Assembly (NCBI RefSeq): GCF_021730305.1
Contig: NZ_CP032674.1
Location: forward strand, 1,349,001-1,413,000
DNA length: 64,000 bases
Direction of reading: 5' to 3'
Source of the DNA: Xanthobacter sp. YC-JY1
Lineage (GTDB): Bacteria > Pseudomonadota > Alphaproteobacteria > Rhizobiales > Xanthobacteraceae
In this document: positions 46,115-64,000 of the stretch, one piece after another
How positions within the stretch are numbered: position 1 is the stretch's first letter
Layout of the letters: every line of letters begins with the position of its first letter
The notes under the pieces: model-generated
Databases searched by the model: none
What the model was told of the DNA's origin: nothing
Seen by the model: only the letters and a program-made list of their open reading frames with translations
Made by a program: the position numbers and the translations under genes

Positions 46115-46178
46115 AGCGCTTTTCACGGCACGGCGACTGGTGCTGGTAGAGGTCGCTCTGGCGCCGTACCTCACCGGC

Positions 46179-46287
46179 GTCATGCCCGGGCTTGTCCCGG
46201 ACATCCACGTGGAGGGGCTGGGGGATAATCATCGGACGATTGCCCTGTCGGCCCGACGTGGATGGCCGGGACAAGCCCGGCCATGAC
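46179..46287. repeat. Dispersed palindromic element R2, copy 2
   Basis: A 109-bp element with 32-bp inverted arms (46179-46210 and 46256-46287) that match at 30 of 32 positions. The arms contain GGGCTTGTCCCGG and ATCCACGT. The 45-bp centre differs from that of the other copies. Nothing in the element codes for protein. Confidence 0.85.
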
Positions 46288-46317
46288 GGGGGGGATAGGC
46301 GGCAGGCGAGCAGTCTT

Positions 46318-50093: not shown

Positions 50094-50981
50094 TCAGGCT
50101 TCGAAACGGGTGACGTCCACCACCCGGTCGGCGACGGCCTCGCGGGTCTCGGCATCGTGGAAGATGCCGAGCAGCCCCGCGCCCGCCGCCTTCTTCTCGC
50201 GGATGAGGTCGATGACCACCTGCCGGTTGGCGGCGTCCAGCGAGGCGGTGGGCTCGTCCAGCAGCAGGAGCGGCTGGGAGCCGATGAAGCCGCGCGCCAC
50301 GTTCACGCGCTGCTGCTCGCCGCCGGAGAAGGTGGCGGGCGGCAGCGACCACAGGCGCTCCGGCAGGTTGAGCCGGGCGAGCAGGGCGCCGGCGCGCGCC
50401 TTGGCGGTCTCCTCGTCCACGCCTTCGGCCCGCAGCGGCGCGGCCACCACGTCGAGGGTGGAGACGCGCGGTATCACCCGCAGGAACTGGCTGACATAGC
50501 CGACGCGGGTGCGCCGCAGCGCCAGCATCTGACGCGGCTCGGCGCCCGCCACCTCGGCGAACGCTTCGCCATCGGCGATGCGCACGGAGCCGGCGTCGAT
50601 GCGGTAATTGCCGTAGACCATCTTGAGGATGGAGCTTTTCCCCGCCCCTGATGGCCCGCCCAGCGCCACGCACTCTCCCGCCACCACGTCGAAGGTGACG
50701 CCCGACACCACCGGAAGGGTGAGCCCGTCGCGCAGGTGCAGGGTGAAGCTCTTGGCGAGGTTTTCGACTGACAGGAGGAGGTCCTGCGTGTCCCGGACCA
50801 GCGACGGCGCAGCCGGAGCGCCGAGCCGGGACCCAGCGCAGGATTCCTGCGCAGCAGGCAAAGCTTGAGCGGTGTTCGGCATGGAAGCGCCTTCGGCGGA
50901 ATGTTGCGCTGGGTCCCGGCTCGCGTTCCGCGCCACATGTGGCGCTGCACTTGGCCGGGACACGAAAGTCTCGATCATCAT
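50094..50981 (-). CDS. phnL: C-P lyase accessory ABC-type protein PhnL, with N-terminal extension
   Basis: A 295-residue ABC-type ATPase: Walker A GPSGAGKSS, VGYVSQFLRVIPRV, signature FSGGEQQRVNVARGF and LLLLDEPTASLDAANR. PhnL binds the C-P lyase core. Known PhnL proteins begin close to the strand LLLSVENLAKSF, which here is near residue 63. The extra N-terminus is encoded largely by an inverted-repeat element (50823-50922). The start at 50981 overlaps the phnK stop (ATGA), which supports the long form; an internal ATG at residue 34 (MPNTAQ) would drop part of it. Confidence 0.88.
   Translation of the reverse strand: MMIETFVSRPSAAPHVARNASRDPAQHSAEGASMPNTAQALPAAQESCAGSRLGAPAAPSLVRDTQDLLLSVENLAKSFTLHLRDGLTLPVVSGVTFDVVAGECVALGGPSGAGKSSILKMVYGNYRIDAGSVRIADGEAFAEVAGAEPRQMLALRRTRVGYVSQFLRVIPRVSTLDVVAAPLRAEGVDEETAKARAGALLARLNLPERLWSLPPATFSGGEQQRVNVARGFIGSQPLLLLDEPTASLDAANRQVVIDLIREKKAAGAGLLGIFHDAETREAVADRVVDVTRFEA
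50823..50922. repeat. Inverted-repeat element inside phnL
   Basis: Perfect 18-bp inverted arms, GAGCCGGGACCCAGCGCA (50823-50840) and its complement (50905-50922), flank a 64-bp centre with its own palindrome CGCAGGATTCCTGCG (50837-50851). It lies in the N-terminal coding part of phnL, codons about 20-53, without breaking the frame. Confidence 0.75.
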
Positions 50982-51757
50982 GCCGCAAGCACCGAGGAGA
51001 CGAGGAGCTGGGTGTAGGGCTCGCGCGGGTCGTCGAGCACCTGATCGGTGAGGCCCTGTTCGATCACGCGTCCGGATTTCATCACCATGATGCGGTGGGA
51101 GAGCAGCCGCGCCACCGCGAGGTCGTGGGTGACGATGACCACGGCGAGGCCGAACTCCTCCACCAGCTGGCGGATGAGATCGAGCAGGCGCGCCTGCACC
51201 GACACGTCGAGGCCCGAGGTCGGCTCGTCCATGAAGACGAGGCGGGGGCGGGTGACGAGGTTGCGGGCGATCTGCAGGCGCTGGCGCATGCCGCCGGAAA
51301 AGGTGCGCGGGTCGTCGTCGATCCGCTCGGCGGCGATCTCCACGCGGGAGAGCCAGTCGGTGGCCTCGCTGCGGATGTCGCCATAGTGGCGCCAGCCCAC
51401 GGCCATGAGCCGCTCGCCCACGTTGCCGCCGGCCGAGACCGCCATGCGCAGGCCCTGCTCGGCATGCTGGCGCACGAAGCCCCAGTCGGTGCGCAGCAGC
51501 AGCCGGCGCTCGGCTTCCGAGAGGCTCGCGAGGTCGCGCGTCTCGCCGTCCCGCATGCGGTAGGCGACTCGCCCGGCGGTGGGGGCAAGCTCGGTGGAGA
51601 GAAGGCCGAGCAAAGTGGACTTGCCGGAGCCGCTTTCCCCGACGATGGCGAGCACCTCGCCCTCGTGCAGGGTCAGGTCGACGTCGCGGCAGCCGAGGCG
51701 GTGGCCGTAATATTTGGCGAGGCCCTGGGCGGTGAGGAGGGGGGTGTCGGTCGTCAT
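50978..51757 (-). CDS. phnK: C-P lyase accessory ABC-type protein PhnK
   Basis: A 259-residue ABC-type ATPase: Walker A GESGSGKST, signature FSGGMRQRLQIARNLV, Walker B LVFMDEPTSGLDVSVQ, H-loop in IVTHDLAV. In E. coli PhnK docks on PhnJ at the C-P lyase core and its ATPase activity is needed in vivo. It overlaps phnJ and phnL by 4 nt at both ends. Confidence 0.93.
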   Translation of the reverse strand: MTTDTPLLTAQGLAKYYGHRLGCRDVDLTLHEGEVLAIVGESGSGKSTLLGLLSTELAPTAGRVAYRMRDGETRDLASLSEAERRLLLRTDWGFVRQHAEQGLRMAVSAGGNVGERLMAVGWRHYGDIRSEATDWLSRVEIAAERIDDDPRTFSGGMRQRLQIARNLVTRPRLVFMDEPTSGLDVSVQARLLDLIRQLVEEFGLAVVIVTHDLAVARLLSHRIMVMKSGRVIEQGLTDQVLDDPREPYTQLLVSSVLAA

Positions 51758-52809
51758 CGCGCCTCTCCGCTTTCGCCTGTGGCGAACCCCTCACCCGTCT
51801 CGCGGCTGGGCCGCGATCCACCCTCTCCCACAAGGGGAGAGGGAATGCCGGTAGGGTTGCCCCCCTCTCCCCTCGCGGGAGAGGGGCTGGGGGTGAGGGG
51901 GCCCGGCTGCGCTGCATAAGGCGCGCTCATGGTGCCCGTATGCCCCTCCGCCTGTCGGGTGGCGCAATGGTCGGTGTCGGAGCAGACGAACATGCGCCCG
52001 CCCTTGTCGTCGAGGATCACCTCGTCGAGATAGACGCCGGTCGCTCCGCACAGGGCGCAGGGCTCCTTGAAGGCCTGCACCTTGAAGGGGTGGTCCTCGA
52101 AATCCAGCGACACCACCTGCGTGTAGGGCGGGATGGCATAGATGCGCTTCTCGCGTCCGGCGCCGAACAGCTGGAGCGCCGGGCTGTCGTTCATCTTGGG
52201 ATTGTCGAACTTCGGGATGGGCGAGGGGTCCATCACGTAGCGGTCCTCCACCTTCACCGGATAGGCATAGGTGGTGGCGATGTGGCCGTGGCGGGCGATG
52301 TCCTCGTAGAGCTTCACCTGCATCAGTCCGTAATCGGCGAGGCCGTGCAGGCGGCGCGTCTCCGTCTCGCGCGGTTCGAGGAAGCGCAGCGGCTCGGGGA
52401 TGGGCACCTGGAAGACGATGGTCTGCCCCGCCTTCAGCTCCGCCTCCGGGATGCGGTGGCGGGTCTGGATGATGGTGGCGTCCTGCGTGCGCGTGGTGGT
52501 GGCGACGCCGGCCGTGGTCTCGAAGAAGGTGCGGATGGCCACCGCATTGGTGGTGTCGTCCGAGCCCTGGTCGATCACCTTGAGCACGTCGTCGGCGCCG
52601 AGAATGGCCGCCGTCACCTGCACGCCACCGGTGCCCCAGCCGTAGGGCATGGGCATCTCGCGCGAGGCGAAGGGCACCTGATAGCCGGGAATGGCGATGG
52701 CCTTCAGGATGGCCCGGCGGATCATCCGCTTCGTCTGTTCGTCCAGATAGGCGAAATTGTAGGTGATGGCCGGCATGGAAGAGGCCGGCGCGGTGGCGGG
52801 CGCGTTCAT
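51754..52809 (-). CDS. phnJ: C-P lyase radical-SAM subunit PhnJ, with repeat-encoded C-terminal tail
   Basis: A 351-residue protein that cleaves the carbon-phosphorus bond of ribose-1-phosphonate cyclic... precursor using a 4Fe-4S cluster and SAM. Cluster cysteines are Cys251, Cys254 and Cys276, and Cys282 is the radical-relay residue; spacing equals that of E. coli PhnJ (241/244/266/272). The normal protein ends near GTMSAPYAAQPG; residues about 304-341 are encoded by a dispersed repeat and are Pro/Gly/Ser rich. ATGA overlaps with phnI and phnK fix both ends of the operon order. Confidence 0.93.
   Translation of the reverse strand: MNAPATAPASSMPAITYNFAYLDEQTKRMIRRAILKAIAIPGYQVPFASREMPMPYGWGTGGVQVTAAILGADDVLKVIDQGSDDTTNAVAIRTFFETTAGVATTTRTQDATIIQTRHRIPEAELKAGQTIVFQVPIPEPLRFLEPRETETRRLHGLADYGLMQVKLYEDIARHGHIATTYAYPVKVEDRYVMDPSPIPKFDNPKMNDSPALQLFGAGREKRIYAIPPYTQVVSLDFEDHPFKVQAFKEPCALCGATGVYLDEVILDDKGGRMFVCSDTDHCATRQAEGHTGTMSAPYAAQPGPLTPSPSPARGEGGNPTGIPSPLVGEGGSRPSRETGEGFATGESGEAR
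51787..51900. repeat. Dispersed hairpin element R1 inside the 3' end of phnJ
   Basis: A 114-bp composite. Outer arms CCCCTCACCC and GGGTGAGGGG enclose two hairpins, CCCTCTCCC/GGGGAGAGGG (51821-51843) and CCCTCTCCC/GGGAGAGGG (51862-51886). The same 40-bp unit occurs twice in phnI (53463-53584), at 62772-62812 and, degenerate, at 58570-58608. Here it encodes the last part of PhnJ. Confidence 0.85.
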
Positions 52810-54002
52810 TCGGCGGCCTCCTTCATGTCCTCGGTGCCGGGGGCTGTCTCGGCCTCCGCGCGCATGCGGCGGATGAGGTCGAGTTCGGCCTGGAAGTCCA
52901 CGTAGTGGGGCAGCTTCAGGTGCTCCACGAAGCCGGTGGCCTGCACGTTGTCGCAATGGGAGAGGACGAATTCCTCGTCCTGCGCCGGGGCGCTCTTTTC
53001 CTCGCCCAGTTCCTTGAAGCGCAGCGCGCGGTCCACCAGCGCCATGGACATGGCCTTGCGCTCGGATTGGCCGAAGACGAGGCCATAGCCGCGGGTGAAC
53101 TGGGGTGGCTCGGTGGCCGAGCCCTTGAACTGGTTCACGCTCTGGCACTCGGTGACGGAGATGTCGCCGAGCGGCACGGCAAAGCCCAGCTCTTCCACAG
53201 GAAGGCTCACCTCCACCGTGCCGAAGCGGATTTCGCCCACGAAGGGATGGGTGCGGGCATAGCCGCGCTGGGTGGAATAGCCGAGCGCCAGCAAAAAGCC
53301 CTCGTCGCCCCGCGCTAGCGCCTGCAGGCGCAGCGGCCGGTCGGCGGGGAAGGAGAGGGGCTCGCGGGTGAGGTCGCGCGGCGGCGTGCCGTCATCGGCC
53401 GGGGAGGGCTCGATGAGACCCTCGCCGCCGAGGAGATCGGTGACCCGGGGCATGGGGGTTTCCCCCCTCTCCCCTTGCGGGAGAGGGGCCGGGGGTGAGG
53501 GGTGTGATCCATCCGTGGGAACAGCGCCAAACTCCCGGCCCTCCTCCCCCTCACCCCAGCCCTCTCCCGCAAGGGGAGAGGGGGCGCCTTCGGCCTTGGT
53601 CGCCAGCCGCTCGTCCATCAGGCGGTGCGTGTAGTCGAAGGTGGGACCGAGCACCTGCCCGCCAGGCAGGTCCTTGAAGGTGGCGGAGATGCGCCGTTCG
53701 ATGCGCATGGCCCCCGTATCCACCGGCACCGAGGCGCCGAAGCGGGGCAAGGTGGTGCGGAAGGCGCGGGCGAGGAAGATCGCCTCGATCAGGTCGCCCC
53801 GCGCCTGCTTGATGGCGAGGGCCGCCAGCTCCCGGTCATAGAGCGAGCCCTCGGCCATCACCCGGTCCACGGCGAGGGAGAGCTGGCCGGCGATCTGGTC
53901 GAGCCCGATCTCCGGCACGCTTTCCTCGCCGCGCCGCTTCTTGGCGAGCAGCGCGTGGGCATTGCGGATGGCGGCCTCGCCGCCCTTCACGGCCACGTAC
54001 AT
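52806..54002 (-). CDS. phnI: C-P lyase core subunit PhnI, with internal repeat-encoded insertion
   Basis: A 398-residue protein, longer than the usual 355-370. PhnI, with PhnG/H/J, forms the core that joins the phosphonate to ATP ribose with loss of adenine. Family segments are RRGEESVPEIGLDQIAGQLSLAVDRVM, FLARAFRTTLPRFG, MPRVTDLLGGEGLIEP and LGDISVTECQSVNQF. Between TFDYTHRLMDERLA and MPRVTDLL, residues about 138-181 are Pro/Gly/Glu-rich and encoded by an R1 repeat. The insertion lies in a natural linker and keeps the frame. Overlaps phnJ by 4 nt. Confidence 0.93.
   Translation of the reverse strand: MYVAVKGGEAAIRNAHALLAKKRRGEESVPEIGLDQIAGQLSLAVDRVMAEGSLYDRELAALAIKQARGDLIEAIFLARAFRTTLPRFGASVPVDTGAMRIERRISATFKDLPGGQVLGPTFDYTHRLMDERLATKAEGAPSPLAGEGWGEGEEGREFGAVPTDGSHPSPPAPLPQGERGETPMPRVTDLLGGEGLIEPSPADDGTPPRDLTREPLSFPADRPLRLQALARGDEGFLLALGYSTQRGYARTHPFVGEIRFGTVEVSLPVEELGFAVPLGDISVTECQSVNQFKGSATEPPQFTRGYGLVFGQSERKAMSMALVDRALRFKELGEEKSAPAQDEEFVLSHCDNVQATGFVEHLKLPHYVDFQAELDLIRRMRAEAETAPGTEDMKEAAE
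53463..53584. repeat. Dispersed hairpin element R1 inside phnI
   Basis: A 122-bp element made of two R1 units in inverted orientation (53463-53502 and 53547-53584) around a 44-bp centre. Each unit holds a CTCTCCC/GGGAGAG hairpin and a GGGGTGAGGGG-type arm. The element is read through in the phnI frame. Confidence 0.88.
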
Positions 54003-58549: not shown

Positions 58550-58569
58550 GTGGGCTCTGCCTGTTCCTT

Positions 58570-58608
58570 CCCTCCGCCCTTGCGGGAGAGAGGCCGGGGT
58601 AAGGGGGG
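58570..58608. repeat. Degenerate R1 unit between phnE and phnD
   Basis: CCCTCCGCCC, TTGCGGGAGAG, and GGCCGGGGTAAGGGG resemble the 40-bp R1 unit found in phnI and phnJ, with several changes that weaken the hairpin. Confidence 0.5.
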
Positions 58609-58657
58609 CGTCTAGACGCAGGATGCGATGGGCGCCGTCCGCGCCTTAGGAGCCGCC

Positions 58658-58765
58658 GTCATGGCCGGGCTTGTCCCGGCCATCCACGTCCCGCGGCCGG
58701 GAAGCCACCGCGGAACATCGCGCATGCGGCTCGACGTGGATGCCCGGGACAAGCCCGGGCATGAC
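58658..58765. repeat. Dispersed palindromic element R2, copy 3
   Basis: A 108-bp element with 33-bp inverted arms (58658-58690 and 58733-58765) that match at about 31 of 33 positions and contain GGGCTTGTCCCGG and ATCCACGTC. It fills the phnD-phnE spacer and could reduce expression of the permeases relative to the binding protein. Confidence 0.85.
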
Positions 58766-58794
58766 GCGCATTTCTTCGCCGGGGGGCGTCAGTC

Positions 58795-61343: not shown

Positions 61344-62609
61344 TCAAGCGGTAATGGCGGCTTCCACGAGGTTGGCGACGGCCAGCGCCTGCCGATCGCG
61401 CCCGAAACGCCCCACCACCTGCACCCCCACGGGCATGCCGTTGGCGGCGGATAGGCCGGCCACGTTGATCGCCGGGCAGCCCATGAGCGTCCACAGCCGG
61501 TTGAAGATGGCCGAGCCGGTGGAGGCGAAGCCTTCCGGTGCGTGGCCGGGGGCGGAGAAGGTGAGGATGGCGTCCACCTCCGCGAACACATCCCCCAGCG
61601 CATGCCGCGCCCGCTTGGCGGTGCGTCGCGCGCCGTCATAGAGATCGGGCGGAATGGCGCGCGCGGCTTCAAGATGGCTGCGCAGCAGGGGCGAGAGGCG
61701 GTCGCCGTCATAGGTGAGCTCGTCGCCCAAGGCGAGCGCGGCCTCGAAATCCTGCACCGTGCCGTGGATGGCGTCGGCCGCCTCCAGCGCCTCGGGCAAT
61801 TCCAGATCGAAGATGCGGGCGCCCCTCGCCTCGGCGGCACGGGCGGCGGCGTCCAGCGCGGCGTGGGCGTCGGGAGAGGCGACGCTGGCACGGGCGGTGC
61901 GCACGATGGCGATGCGGGGCGCCTGAGCGGTCTCGTCCCCGATGTCGAGGCCGCGGCCGGCGATGGCATCGGCGGCGAAGGCCACGTCGCGCACCCGCGC
62001 GCCGAACAGGCCAACCGTGTCGAGATGCCAGGAGAAGGTCTTCATGCCCAACGTCGGCAGCAGGCGGAAGGTGGGCTTGTAGCCGGTGACGCCGCAGAAG
62101 GCGGCCGGGCGGATCACCGAGCCGCCGGTCTGGGTGCCGAGCGCCAGCGGCAGCATCCCTGCCGCCACCGCCGCCGCCGACCCCGCCGACGAGCCGCCGG
62201 GCGAGAAGGTGAGGCGGCGCGGATTGCGGGTGCGCGTGGGCTGGAGGAAAGCGAATTCGGTGGTCTCGGTCTTCCCCACGACAAGGCCGCCGGCCCGGCG
62301 GGTCATGGCCACAACCGGCGCGTCGGTGCGCGGGCGATAGCCGGCATAGATGGGGCTGCCGTAGGCGGTGGGCATGTCGCGGGTGTCGAGGATGTCCTTC
62401 ACCCCCACCGGCAGGCCGGCCAGCGGCGTCGCGGCGAGGCCGGGCGCGCGGGCGGCGGCGCGGGCCGAATCGAGATCGAGCGTCACGAAGGCCCCGACCG
62501 CGCCCTCGTGCTCGGCGATGGCGGCGGCGACCTGTTCGAGCACGGCTTCAGGCGTGGTGCGGCCGGAACGGATATCGGCGGCAAGATCTCGGGCGGAAAG
62601 CAGGCTCAT
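61344..62609 (-). CDS. Amidase-signature-family amidase
   Basis: A 421-residue enzyme. The catalytic Ser-cisSer-Lys triad is visible: Lys in PVGVKDILDT, the Gly/Ser-rich FSPGGSSAGSAAAVAAGMLPLALGTQTGGSVIRPAAFCGV holds both serines. The C-terminal NRLWTLMGCPAINVAGLSAANGMPVGVQVVG is typical. It hydrolyses an amide bond; the substrate cannot be told, and it is not GatA because GatB/C are absent and the substrate loops differ. Start at 62609 follows GAGTGAG; an ATG 6 codons upstream is possible. Confidence 0.9.
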   Translation of the reverse strand: MSLLSARDLAADIRSGRTTPEAVLEQVAAAIAEHEGAVGAFVTLDLDSARAAARAPGLAATPLAGLPVGVKDILDTRDMPTAYGSPIYAGYRPRTDAPVVAMTRRAGGLVVGKTETTEFAFLQPTRTRNPRRLTFSPGGSSAGSAAAVAAGMLPLALGTQTGGSVIRPAAFCGVTGYKPTFRLLPTLGMKTFSWHLDTVGLFGARVRDVAFAADAIAGRGLDIGDETAQAPRIAIVRTARASVASPDAHAALDAAARAAEARGARIFDLELPEALEAADAIHGTVQDFEAALALGDELTYDGDRLSPLLRSHLEAARAIPPDLYDGARRTAKRARHALGDVFAEVDAILTFSAPGHAPEGFASTGSAIFNRLWTLMGCPAINVAGLSAANGMPVGVQVVGRFGRDRQALAVANLVEAAITA

Positions 62610-62771
62610 GCGCTCACTCTGCGGCATCCATGGGCGGCCACCATGCGCAACCCCCGCCGCCGACGCAATGGCGGGGCGAGGGCGCTCCACGGCTGCTCCG
62701 TCTTCCTGTTCGGGAGGGCGGGGTGAGGGGGGCGCCGAAACGGGACGAGGCGGCGCTTCCGGAAAAGCCCG

Positions 62772-62812
62772 CCCCCCTCACCCCCGGCCCCTCTCCCGCA
62801 AGGGGAGAGGGG
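62772..62812. repeat. Dispersed hairpin unit R1, intergenic copy
   Basis: About 41 bp, CCCCCTCACCCCCGG then CCCCTCTCCCGCAAGGGG and AGAGGGG, the plus-strand orientation of the unit found in phnI and phnJ. It lies between the amidase start and the glyA stop. Confidence 0.8.
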
Positions 62813-62833
62813 AGGAGGGCGGTGCCTCGCTCC

Positions 62834-64000
62834 TCACATCCCCGCATACAGCGGGAAGCGGGTGCAGATGTCGCGCACGGTGGCGCGCGCCGCGACTTCG
62901 GCCTTGCCGTTGGCCTCGGCGCCGTTCGCCGCGAGGCCGGTGAGCACGTCGGCGATCAGGTCGGCCACCGTCTCGAACTCGGCGACACCGAAGCCGCGCG
63001 TGGTGGCGGCGGGGGTGCCGAGGCGGATGCCGGACGTCACGGCCGGCTTCTCGGGATCGAAGGGAATGCCGTTCTTGTTGCAGGTCAGGCCGGCCCGCTC
63101 CAGCGCGGCTTCCGCCGCCTTGCCGGTGACGCCGAAGGGACGCAGGTCCACCAGCACCATATGGCTGTCGGTGCCGCCGGAGACGATGGCCGCGCCGCGC
63201 CGCGACAGCCGACCCGCCAGCGCCCGGGCATTTGCGACCACCTGCGCGGCATAGGTGCGGAACTCCGGAGTCAGCGCCTCGCCGAACGCCACCGCCTTGG
63301 CGGCGATCACATGCATCAGCGGCCCGCCCTGCAGGCCGGGAAAGACAGCCGAATTGAGCTTCTTCGCGAGCGCCTCGTCATTGGTGAGGATCAGGCCGCC
63401 GCGCGGGCCGCGCAGGGTCTTGTGGGTGGTGGTGGTCACCACATGGGCGTGGGGGAAGGGGGAAGGGTAGGCCCCGGCGGCGATGAGCCCCGCATAGTGG
63501 GCGGCATCCACCATCAGCAGCGCGCCCACCTGATCGGCGATGGCGCGGAAGCGGGCGAAATCGATGATGCGCGGATAGGACGAGCCGCCGGCGATGATGA
63601 GCTTCGGCCGGTGCTCCAGCGCCAGGCGCTCTACCGCATCATAGTCGATCAAGGCGGTGTCCGGCGCGACGCCGTAGCCGATGGCGTTGAACCACTTGCC
63701 GGAGAGGGTGGGCGGCGCGCCGTGGGTGAGGTGGCCGCCGGCCGCCAGCGACATGCCGAGCAGGGTATCGCCGGGCTTGAGCGCCGCCATCAGCACGGCC
63801 GCATTGGCCTGCGCGCCCGAATGGGGCTGCACATTGGCAAAGCCCGCACCGAACAGCGCCTTGGCGCGGTCGATGGCGATCTCCTCCACCACGTCCACAT
63901 GCTCGCAGCCGCCATAGTAGCGCTTGCCCGGCAGGCCCTCGGCATACTTGTTGGTGAGCACCGAGCCCTGGGCTCTCAGCACCGCCTCGGACACGATGTT
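62834..64000 (-). CDS. glyA: Serine hydroxymethyltransferase GlyA, N-terminus outside the window
   Basis: The 5' end lies beyond base 64000; the frame is open to the edge. The visible 388 residues start in [22 protein letters not shown] and include [35 protein letters not shown] (His and Asp of the PLP site) and the PLP-lysine motif [16 protein letters not shown]. It interconverts serine and glycine with transfer of a C1 unit to tetrahydrofolate. Whether it is the only glyA of the genome is unknown; a folate-linked role with the GcvT proteins of this window is possible but they are 50 kb away. Confidence 0.93.

Follow-up and report, generated by a model that had tools for sequence, protein, structure and literature searches.

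A dispersed hairpin repeat lies in frame in the PhnI hinge and the PhnJ tail of Xanthobacter

Two core subunits of the carbon-phosphorus (C-P) lyase, PhnI and PhnJ, each contain palindromic, repeated DNA in Xanthobacter sp. YC-JY1, which raises the question of what this repeat is and how it comes to stand in frame in two conserved proteins. The phn genes lie in the 64,000-nucleotide stretch analysed here (the window; contig NZ_CP032674.1, positions 1,349,001 to 1,413,000 of the forward strand), to which coordinates refer unless another sequence is named. The hairpin pattern CCCTCTCCC-N4-GGGGAGAGGG, with up to three mismatches allowed, gave 11 matches at six places of the window, compared with a mean of 0.07 in 100 shuffles, and four of the six places are in phn genes (two in phnJ and two in phnI). 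We consider it probable, at roughly three chances in four, that the repeat is a dispersed, structured and selfish element that is mostly intergenic and, where it persists in frame, is confined to flexible hinges and tails, without a needed catalytic role.

The phnI gene (52806..54002, minus strand) matched PF05861 over residues 1-383 of 398 (E 9.4e-165), and the hinge with the repeats comprises approximately residues 128-185. The phnI element (53463..53584, minus strand) is an inverted pair of hairpins in frame, both of type A as defined below, which matched the pattern at 53560..53582 (plus strand; the 5' hairpin in the phnI sense) and at 53465..53487 (minus strand; the 3' hairpin). It covers residues ~140-180, i.e., 41 residues and not about 44 as the initial annotation of the locus had given. 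In an alignment with the E. coli PhnI structure, residue 139 of the Xanthobacter protein corresponds to E. coli residue 139 and residue 175 to E. coli residue 143; the insert thus has no counterpart in E. coli PhnI. The phnJ gene (51754..52809, minus strand) matched PF06007 over residues 16-287 of 351 (E 2.5e-147) and has a repeat-derived C-terminal tail. As had been noted before, the phnJ element (51787..51900, minus strand) codes for the last part of PhnJ, residues ~304-341. Its two hairpins are in the opposite arrangement, with the tails outward: one at 51821..51843 (plus strand), with an extra small hairpin at 51800-51816 between it and its tail, and a type A hairpin at 51863..51885 (minus strand; pattern match). 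The alignment with the E. coli PhnJ chain stops at residue 286, which corresponds to E. coli residue 275 of 281. The stop codon of phnJ and the start codon of phnK, the next gene (50978..51757, minus strand; an ABC protein with PF00005, named from its operon position), overlap by 4 nt. From these alignments, the phnI element is internal and within the hinge, and the phnJ element follows the conserved protein as a C-terminal tail, where phnJ meets phnK. Of the two insertions proposed earlier, that in PhnI would be internal, and that in PhnJ is a tail and not an internal insertion. A suggested change in the surface around PhnJ and PhnK found no support: in the accessible part of a report on the E. 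coli complex (PMC9947105), PhnK binds the central insertion domain of PhnJ, residues 129-169, and not its C-terminus, which would place the tail away from the PhnK contact.

The repeat is dispersed over the whole YC-JY1 genome. The hairpin with up to two mismatches gave 79 forward and 74 reverse matches (1 and 2 in a backward control); because many places match on both strands, this corresponds to at least 79 places. A stricter palindrome pattern gave 60 places and none in its control. The dispersed hairpin repeat proposed for PhnI is thus confirmed, at six places of the window and these genomic places, with PF05861 running across the repeat in the protein. Outside genes, a lone copy (62774..62812, plus strand; hairpin match 62789-62811) corresponds to the repeat unit previously placed at 62772-62812. 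It is 39 nt long, 100% complementary to 53464-53502 and flanked by large open reading frames (ORFs; 61344-62690 and 62834-63994). A degenerate copy (58565..58608, minus strand) is 82% complementary to 62773-62816, with three mismatches to the hairpin pattern at 58570-58592. Among 38 clusters of the genome, we found 25 inverted doublets, defined as a minus-strand and then a plus-strand hairpin 70-130 nt apart. The hairpins and tails of the doublets (the tails are mostly GGGGTGAGGGG and CCCCTCACCCC) are conserved and the middle is variable; the length is 112-121 bp in 19 of the 25 and 103-141 bp over all. The opposite arrangement seen in phnJ occurs in four pairs of the same cluster set.

The sequence resembles that of TMECO, a motif for which intrastrand triplex formation has been reported, with 3610 occurrences across 262 proteobacterial genomes (Holder et al. 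2015, PMC4666352, accessible part). One phnI hairpin with its tail fits the TMECO pattern given there, CCCTCNCCC-N3-6-GGGNGAGGG-N3-GGGNGAGGG, exactly. For the second hairpin of phnI and one of phnJ, a fit requires a second loop of 5 nt, and the other phnJ hairpin does not fit. Among the YC-JY1 loci read, the pattern matched 21 times exactly and 26 times with at most one mismatch; in G003, a genome of type B, there were 1 and 42 such matches. By sequence pattern, inverted pairs and occurrence in many proteobacteria, the repeat is like TMECO as described in that source. In E. coli MG1655, however, TMECO is reported there as always intergenic, five times as inverted pairs, whereas some Xanthobacter copies are in frame in enzymes (2 of 41 clusters of the YC-JY1 genome are in reading frames), and Xanthobacter also has a second variant, type B, and a long form whose loop contains two additional hairpins. 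A REPIN unit consists of two inverted hairpins with a spacer, which the 25 doublets resemble. Judged from sequence, the repeat would be of the TMECO type and, by arrangement, often a REPIN-like inverted doublet. Unlike the REPIN/RAYT system, the YC-JY1 genome has no RAYT. The RAYT profile (Y1 transposase, PF01797) gave no match in the YC-JY1 genome and matched 5 of 14 control genomes; the other Xanthobacter genomes were not searched. A spread driven by a RAYT of the YC-JY1 genome was rejected for this reason, within the same scope.

A known RNA family was rejected as well. In the eight loci searched, which have short and long forms and do not include the window, nothing over the repeat reached the Rfam gathering threshold; CC3513 over the long form in L187 scored 30.8 bits, below its gathering value of 40 (E 0.072). 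The same search recorded the serC leader RNA at L188:125-176 (RF00517, 66.8 bits, gathering 35).

We scored hairpin clusters by codon usage, trained on the window genes, and excluded clusters less than 600 bases from a locus end. Clusters in reading frames numbered 2 of 41 in the YC-JY1 genome (phnI, internal; phnJ, tail), 4 of 30 in G008 (three internal, one tail) and 3 of 60 in G003 (two internal, one labelled tail), together at least 9 of 131. For comparison, 120-bp segments drawn at random from these loci received the label internal in 559 of 1170, 391 of 810 and 719 of 1650 cases, respectively (44-48%). Because framed clusters are few compared with these segments, the repeat is strongly depleted in genes. 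Copies in frame outside the phn genes were found in UvrC and a CT_A_B/CT_C_D carboxylase of G008, and in a double ABC protein and an ABC exporter of G003; in the carboxylase, the double ABC protein and the exporter, the hairpin is between two domain matches. The consensus unit is free of stop codons in 5 of 6 frames for type A and in all 6 for type B. Reading the coding hairpins by eye, we found the stop-bearing and the most basic frames unused, in cases that are few and related. A frame bias against basic peptides was rejected on the same ground, although the strongly basic frames are unused.

To see how the PhnI hinge varies, we counted its length between FDYTHR and RGDEGF in Xanthobacter genomes (G000 to G013) and in 80 related loci from named genomes, the best of 580; one of the latter, L103, is X. 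oligotrophicus, and the other 79 were compared. The hinge had 70-75 residues in 77 of these 79 loci and 82 in two. The ten complete Xanthobacter hinges were all longer, with 91, 92, 103, 108, 123, 133, 134, 142, 154 and 229 residues; PhnI is incomplete in G005 and G006, which are cut in the hinge, and in G004, which starts behind it. The relatives do not carry unrelated sequence of equal length at this place. Hairpins were present in 8 of the 10 complete hinges and absent in the sister species G001 and G011 (support 100/100). A hairpin match was also absent in 77 of the 79 other loci, and the two weak matches (up to three mismatches; L112 and L121, both Bradyrhizobium) came without extra length, so that the insertion-free PhnI which the initial annotation had suggested looking for does exist among relatives. 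In G013, a genome of the same genus that is 98% complete, the sole PhnI matches were the repeat itself. The phnI hinge of G012 (L073) shows a fourfold tandem expansion with a unit of about 30 residues. A separate origin of the G012 hairpins was considered and rejected: their order differs, but one flank resembles that of other type B species, and a rearrangement is equally likely.

The lengths of these hinges bear on two other explanations. One is that the repeats are artefacts of annotation or assembly and are not in the proteins, which we regard as very improbable. G/C-rich hairpins seem to break assemblies, as the contigs of G005 and G006 end in the hinge, and the two parts of PhnJ in G008 are in different frames. 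The YC-JY1 genome, however, is one contig (5,392,410 bases, 99.99% complete) in which a single PF05861 match spans the repeat, and all ten complete orthologues are open through hinges of ten different lengths. The frame of the second half of PhnI is kept in 10 of 10 across these lengths (138-552 nt, counted to RVTDLLG), which argues for translation as one chain. The G006 contig (L067, G006:C145) breaks within the phnI hinge, with a sequence at its end that resembles a Nextera adapter, and draft sequences of this hinge should for this reason be read carefully. The second explanation is that selection favored the PhnI insert because a longer hinge suits the wide opening of the C-P lyase core. 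In E. coli, this core opens on ATP hydrolysis (PMC9947105, accessible part), and all ten complete Xanthobacter PhnI are longer, including those without hairpins (G001, 91; G011, 108). Nevertheless, the lengths scatter widely (91-229), the hinge sequence is strongly divergent among species, and UvrC and transporters of the genus bear the same kind of insert; we consider selection for hinge length improbable.

The PhnJ tail is less regularly occupied. Beyond the last cysteine, 72 of 79 readable loci (L103 included) have a tail of 8-35 residues, and the other seven have one of 44-72. Clear hairpins were found in 3 of 12 readable Xanthobacter tails (G000, G008 and G009). The tail of G012 contains a decayed type B hairpin, that of G001 a weak match taken as chance, and none was found in that of G002, the nearest relative of the YC-JY1 genome. 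In G008 (L069, 2782-3032), the start of PhnJ and the tail-bearing rest are in different reading frames, by either a real break or an assembly error, and its tail therefore says little on translation. Hairpins also occur in PhnJ tails of two other genera. The tail of Ancylobacter L105 has two TM-like hairpins (L105:4985-5085), and its genome has five matches to the TM pattern (control 0); the tails of Mesorhizobium L151 and L179 have hairpins of different sequence, with 6 and 3 exact copies in the genome (control 0). A weak match in L175 was not counted. Because tails of Xanthobacter, Ancylobacter and Mesorhizobium carry hairpins, the phnJ/phnK junction collects local repeats in three genera.

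A further alternative is that the repeats are kept for a function in the mRNA, where hairpins would tune stability or translation in the phn operon and coding would be a side effect. The folds are very stable: the phnI element reached -104.7 kcal/mol (z -7.9) and the phnJ element -95.5 kcal/mol (z -7.05), with none of 200 shuffles equally stable in either case. The phnJ copy at a gene junction and the tails with hairpin pairs in L105, L151 and L179 also agree with such a role, as does an inverted repeat at 50822-50923 between phnK and the conserved part of phnL. This last repeat, with 33-nt arms that are 85% complementary, is a third repeat element of the phn operon and of different sequence. 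On the other hand, inverted hairpin pairs fold strongly anyway, so that the z-scores cannot separate function from origin; PhnI hairpins are missing from two of the ten complete Xanthobacter proteins and from 77 of the 79 other loci, and clear hairpins occur in just 3 of 12 Xanthobacter PhnJ tails. We regard an mRNA function as unlikely, although somewhat less so than selection for a longer hinge.

A second protein site is used recurrently in the genus. The UvrC loop was readable in 12 of 14 genomes, and hairpins were present in five (G008, G002, G009, G013 and, with two mismatches, G000). None was found in G007, G010, G003, G001 and G011, and in G006 and G004 there were only matches at four mismatches, which were taken as chance. 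In G008, the hairpin lies within the stretch matched by UvrC_RNaseH_dom, where 260 residues correspond to 159 profile positions; by inference from this, the site is probably a loop. The G013 hairpins are of type B with tails inward, and those of G008, G002 and G009 are of type A with tails outward, so that at least two acquisitions at one UvrC loop are likely. In the UvrC tree, G013 is outside the G000/G002/G009 group (99/99); the root is weak and the placement of G008 is open.

The two subtypes (type A, 23 nt; type B, 24 nt; exact matches counted per genome) divide the genus. Type A prevails in G000, G002, G008 and G009 (46, 54, 61 and 60 matches; type B 1, 2, 1 and 1), and type B in G003, G006, G007, G010 and G012 (77, 60, 15, 35 and 52; type A 1, 0, 0, 1 and 0). 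G005 (35 A and 42 B) and G013 (14 A and 21 B) are mixed, G001 and G011 have 11 and 8 copies of type B and none of type A, and G004 has neither. By eye, the PhnI hairpins are A or A-like in G000, G002, G008 and G009; those of G003, G007, G010, G012 and the mixed G005 belong to type B. Such matching of PhnI and genome subtypes suggests conversion or replacement. As proof of conversion it was rejected, because the agreement requires just one or two switches in a tree built from the cores of PhnI and PhnJ (G008 is there without its PhnJ part, and its placement is open).

In four genomes (G009, G010, G003 and G005), one PhnI hairpin has ~60 nt with two further hairpins in its loop, which we call the long form. 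A genus-wide search for one of the inner hairpins found 51 places in 8 of 14 genomes; those seen in L183-L198 lie around position 1500. Among the 16 instances in the loci kept, 15 are between both TM hairpin arms, 63-71 nt apart (random positions, 0 of 2402), and the sixteenth, truncated where its contig stops, retains the left arm. Because the search pattern prescribed the first inner hairpin, its pairing is uninformative. For the other, pairing is kept in 111 of 112 cells of 14 aligned copies, with two-sided changes at 3 of 8 pairs, so that this stem covaries. In G009 and G010 the long form occupies the first PhnI hairpin, in G003 and G005 the second; from these positions, the module has arrived or moved more than once in PhnI, perhaps by insertion into loops or by exchange through conversion. 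It keeps the frame in G009, G010 and G003; G005 is cut. Among the open-access papers listed as sharing a 10-letter sequence word with the long form, none holds its longer words or deals with repeats by title. Taken further, these observations would allow a more specific picture: a two-storey hairpin element without a RAYT, its loop exchangeable for a 63-71-nt module, that uses the PhnI hinge, the UvrC loop and the PhnJ tail as repeated landing or conversion sites, with the hinge sequence following the repeat subtype of the genome in a concerted evolution of repeat family and protein linker. We offer this as a tentative possibility.

That bacterial palindromic repeats settle in tolerant parts of proteins is a known habit, of which the Xanthobacter repeat would be a further case. 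A close likeness is to intragenic GTAG/CGTC REPs (PMC3733652, accessible part): both are short palindromes, often inverted dimers, and in frame in varied proteins including excinuclease subunits. According to that source, excinuclease genes are among the carriers, recB of two Xanthomonas species has such a REP at about the same site, further taxa are described, and the repeats are regarded as neutral in flexible linkers or loops. The Xanthobacter repeat differs from the REPs described there in its sequence family and in the absence of a RAYT from the YC-JY1 genome; no GTAG/CGTC tag conserved beside the hairpins was seen by eye in the 25 doublets. Another palindromic repeat of the window, paired and with CGTC ends (CGTCATG..CCGGGCTTGTCCCGG..CATCCACG; 46174-46222, 46233-46288, 58653-58701 and 58711-58766), looks like the CGTC-tagged REP super-family of alphaproteobacteria as presented in the same source. 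The comparison with Rickettsia palindromic elements (RPEs) made in the initial annotation was apt: RPEs (Ogata 2000, as summarized in the accessible part of PMC10969869) are palindromic and in frame in unrelated conserved genes, as is the Xanthobacter repeat in phnI, uvrC, the carboxylase and the two ABC proteins. The likeness is one of mode. Nearly half of the RPEs are in ORFs in that account, whereas the Xanthobacter repeat is rare in genes (9 of 131 clusters). In the open-access literature, we found nothing on repeat-coded peptides such as SPLAGEG, and no title on Xanthobacter with palindromic in-frame repeats or on PhnI or PhnJ with a palindromic or repeat insertion.

Considering these results together, we favor a dispersed selfish repeat that would have multiplied in Xanthobacter chromosomes, with copies arising at many places. 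Copies in genes would be lost unless the frame stays open and the landing site is a flexible hinge or tail. The hinge of PhnI and the tail of PhnJ would be such tolerant places, and for this reason the repeat may be translated through in both. The stretch it codes for is rich in Pro, Gly and Glu, and is probably disordered and without a needed role in catalysis. Several observations weigh against this interpretation. No empty site with clean borders and no target duplication was found, for which reason we only infer insertion as such. The hairpin-free hinges of G001 (91 residues) and G011 (108) still exceed those of other genera, so the repeats are not the sole cause of hinge length. G002 is without the second PhnI hairpin and the PhnJ tail and groups with G000 (support 85/84), and their absence for this reason looks like loss. 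That 8 of 10 species carry hairpins at the PhnI hinge could point beyond tolerance. The structure prediction for PhnI (27 sequences; mean predicted local distance difference test score [pLDDT] 48, predicted template modeling score [pTM] 0.27) was too poor to place the insert and gives no support for disorder. The count of framed clusters is a lower bound, since a decayed uvrC copy of the YC-JY1 genome was outside the clusters and phnI of G003 was labelled tail.

With these Xanthobacter copies, a repeat family that published work places between genes in E. coli joins those read in frame, and within a single genus the same PhnI hinge and the same UvrC loop bear repeats in many species. The PhnI hinges, which range from 91 to 229 residues, are a natural experiment on the extent of repeat-made linker that an enzyme complex can tolerate. 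The long form was an unexpected find and, with the genus-wide pattern, is most worth following; the matched subtypes and the loop exchanges permit tests of how a repeat multiplies in a genome without a RAYT.

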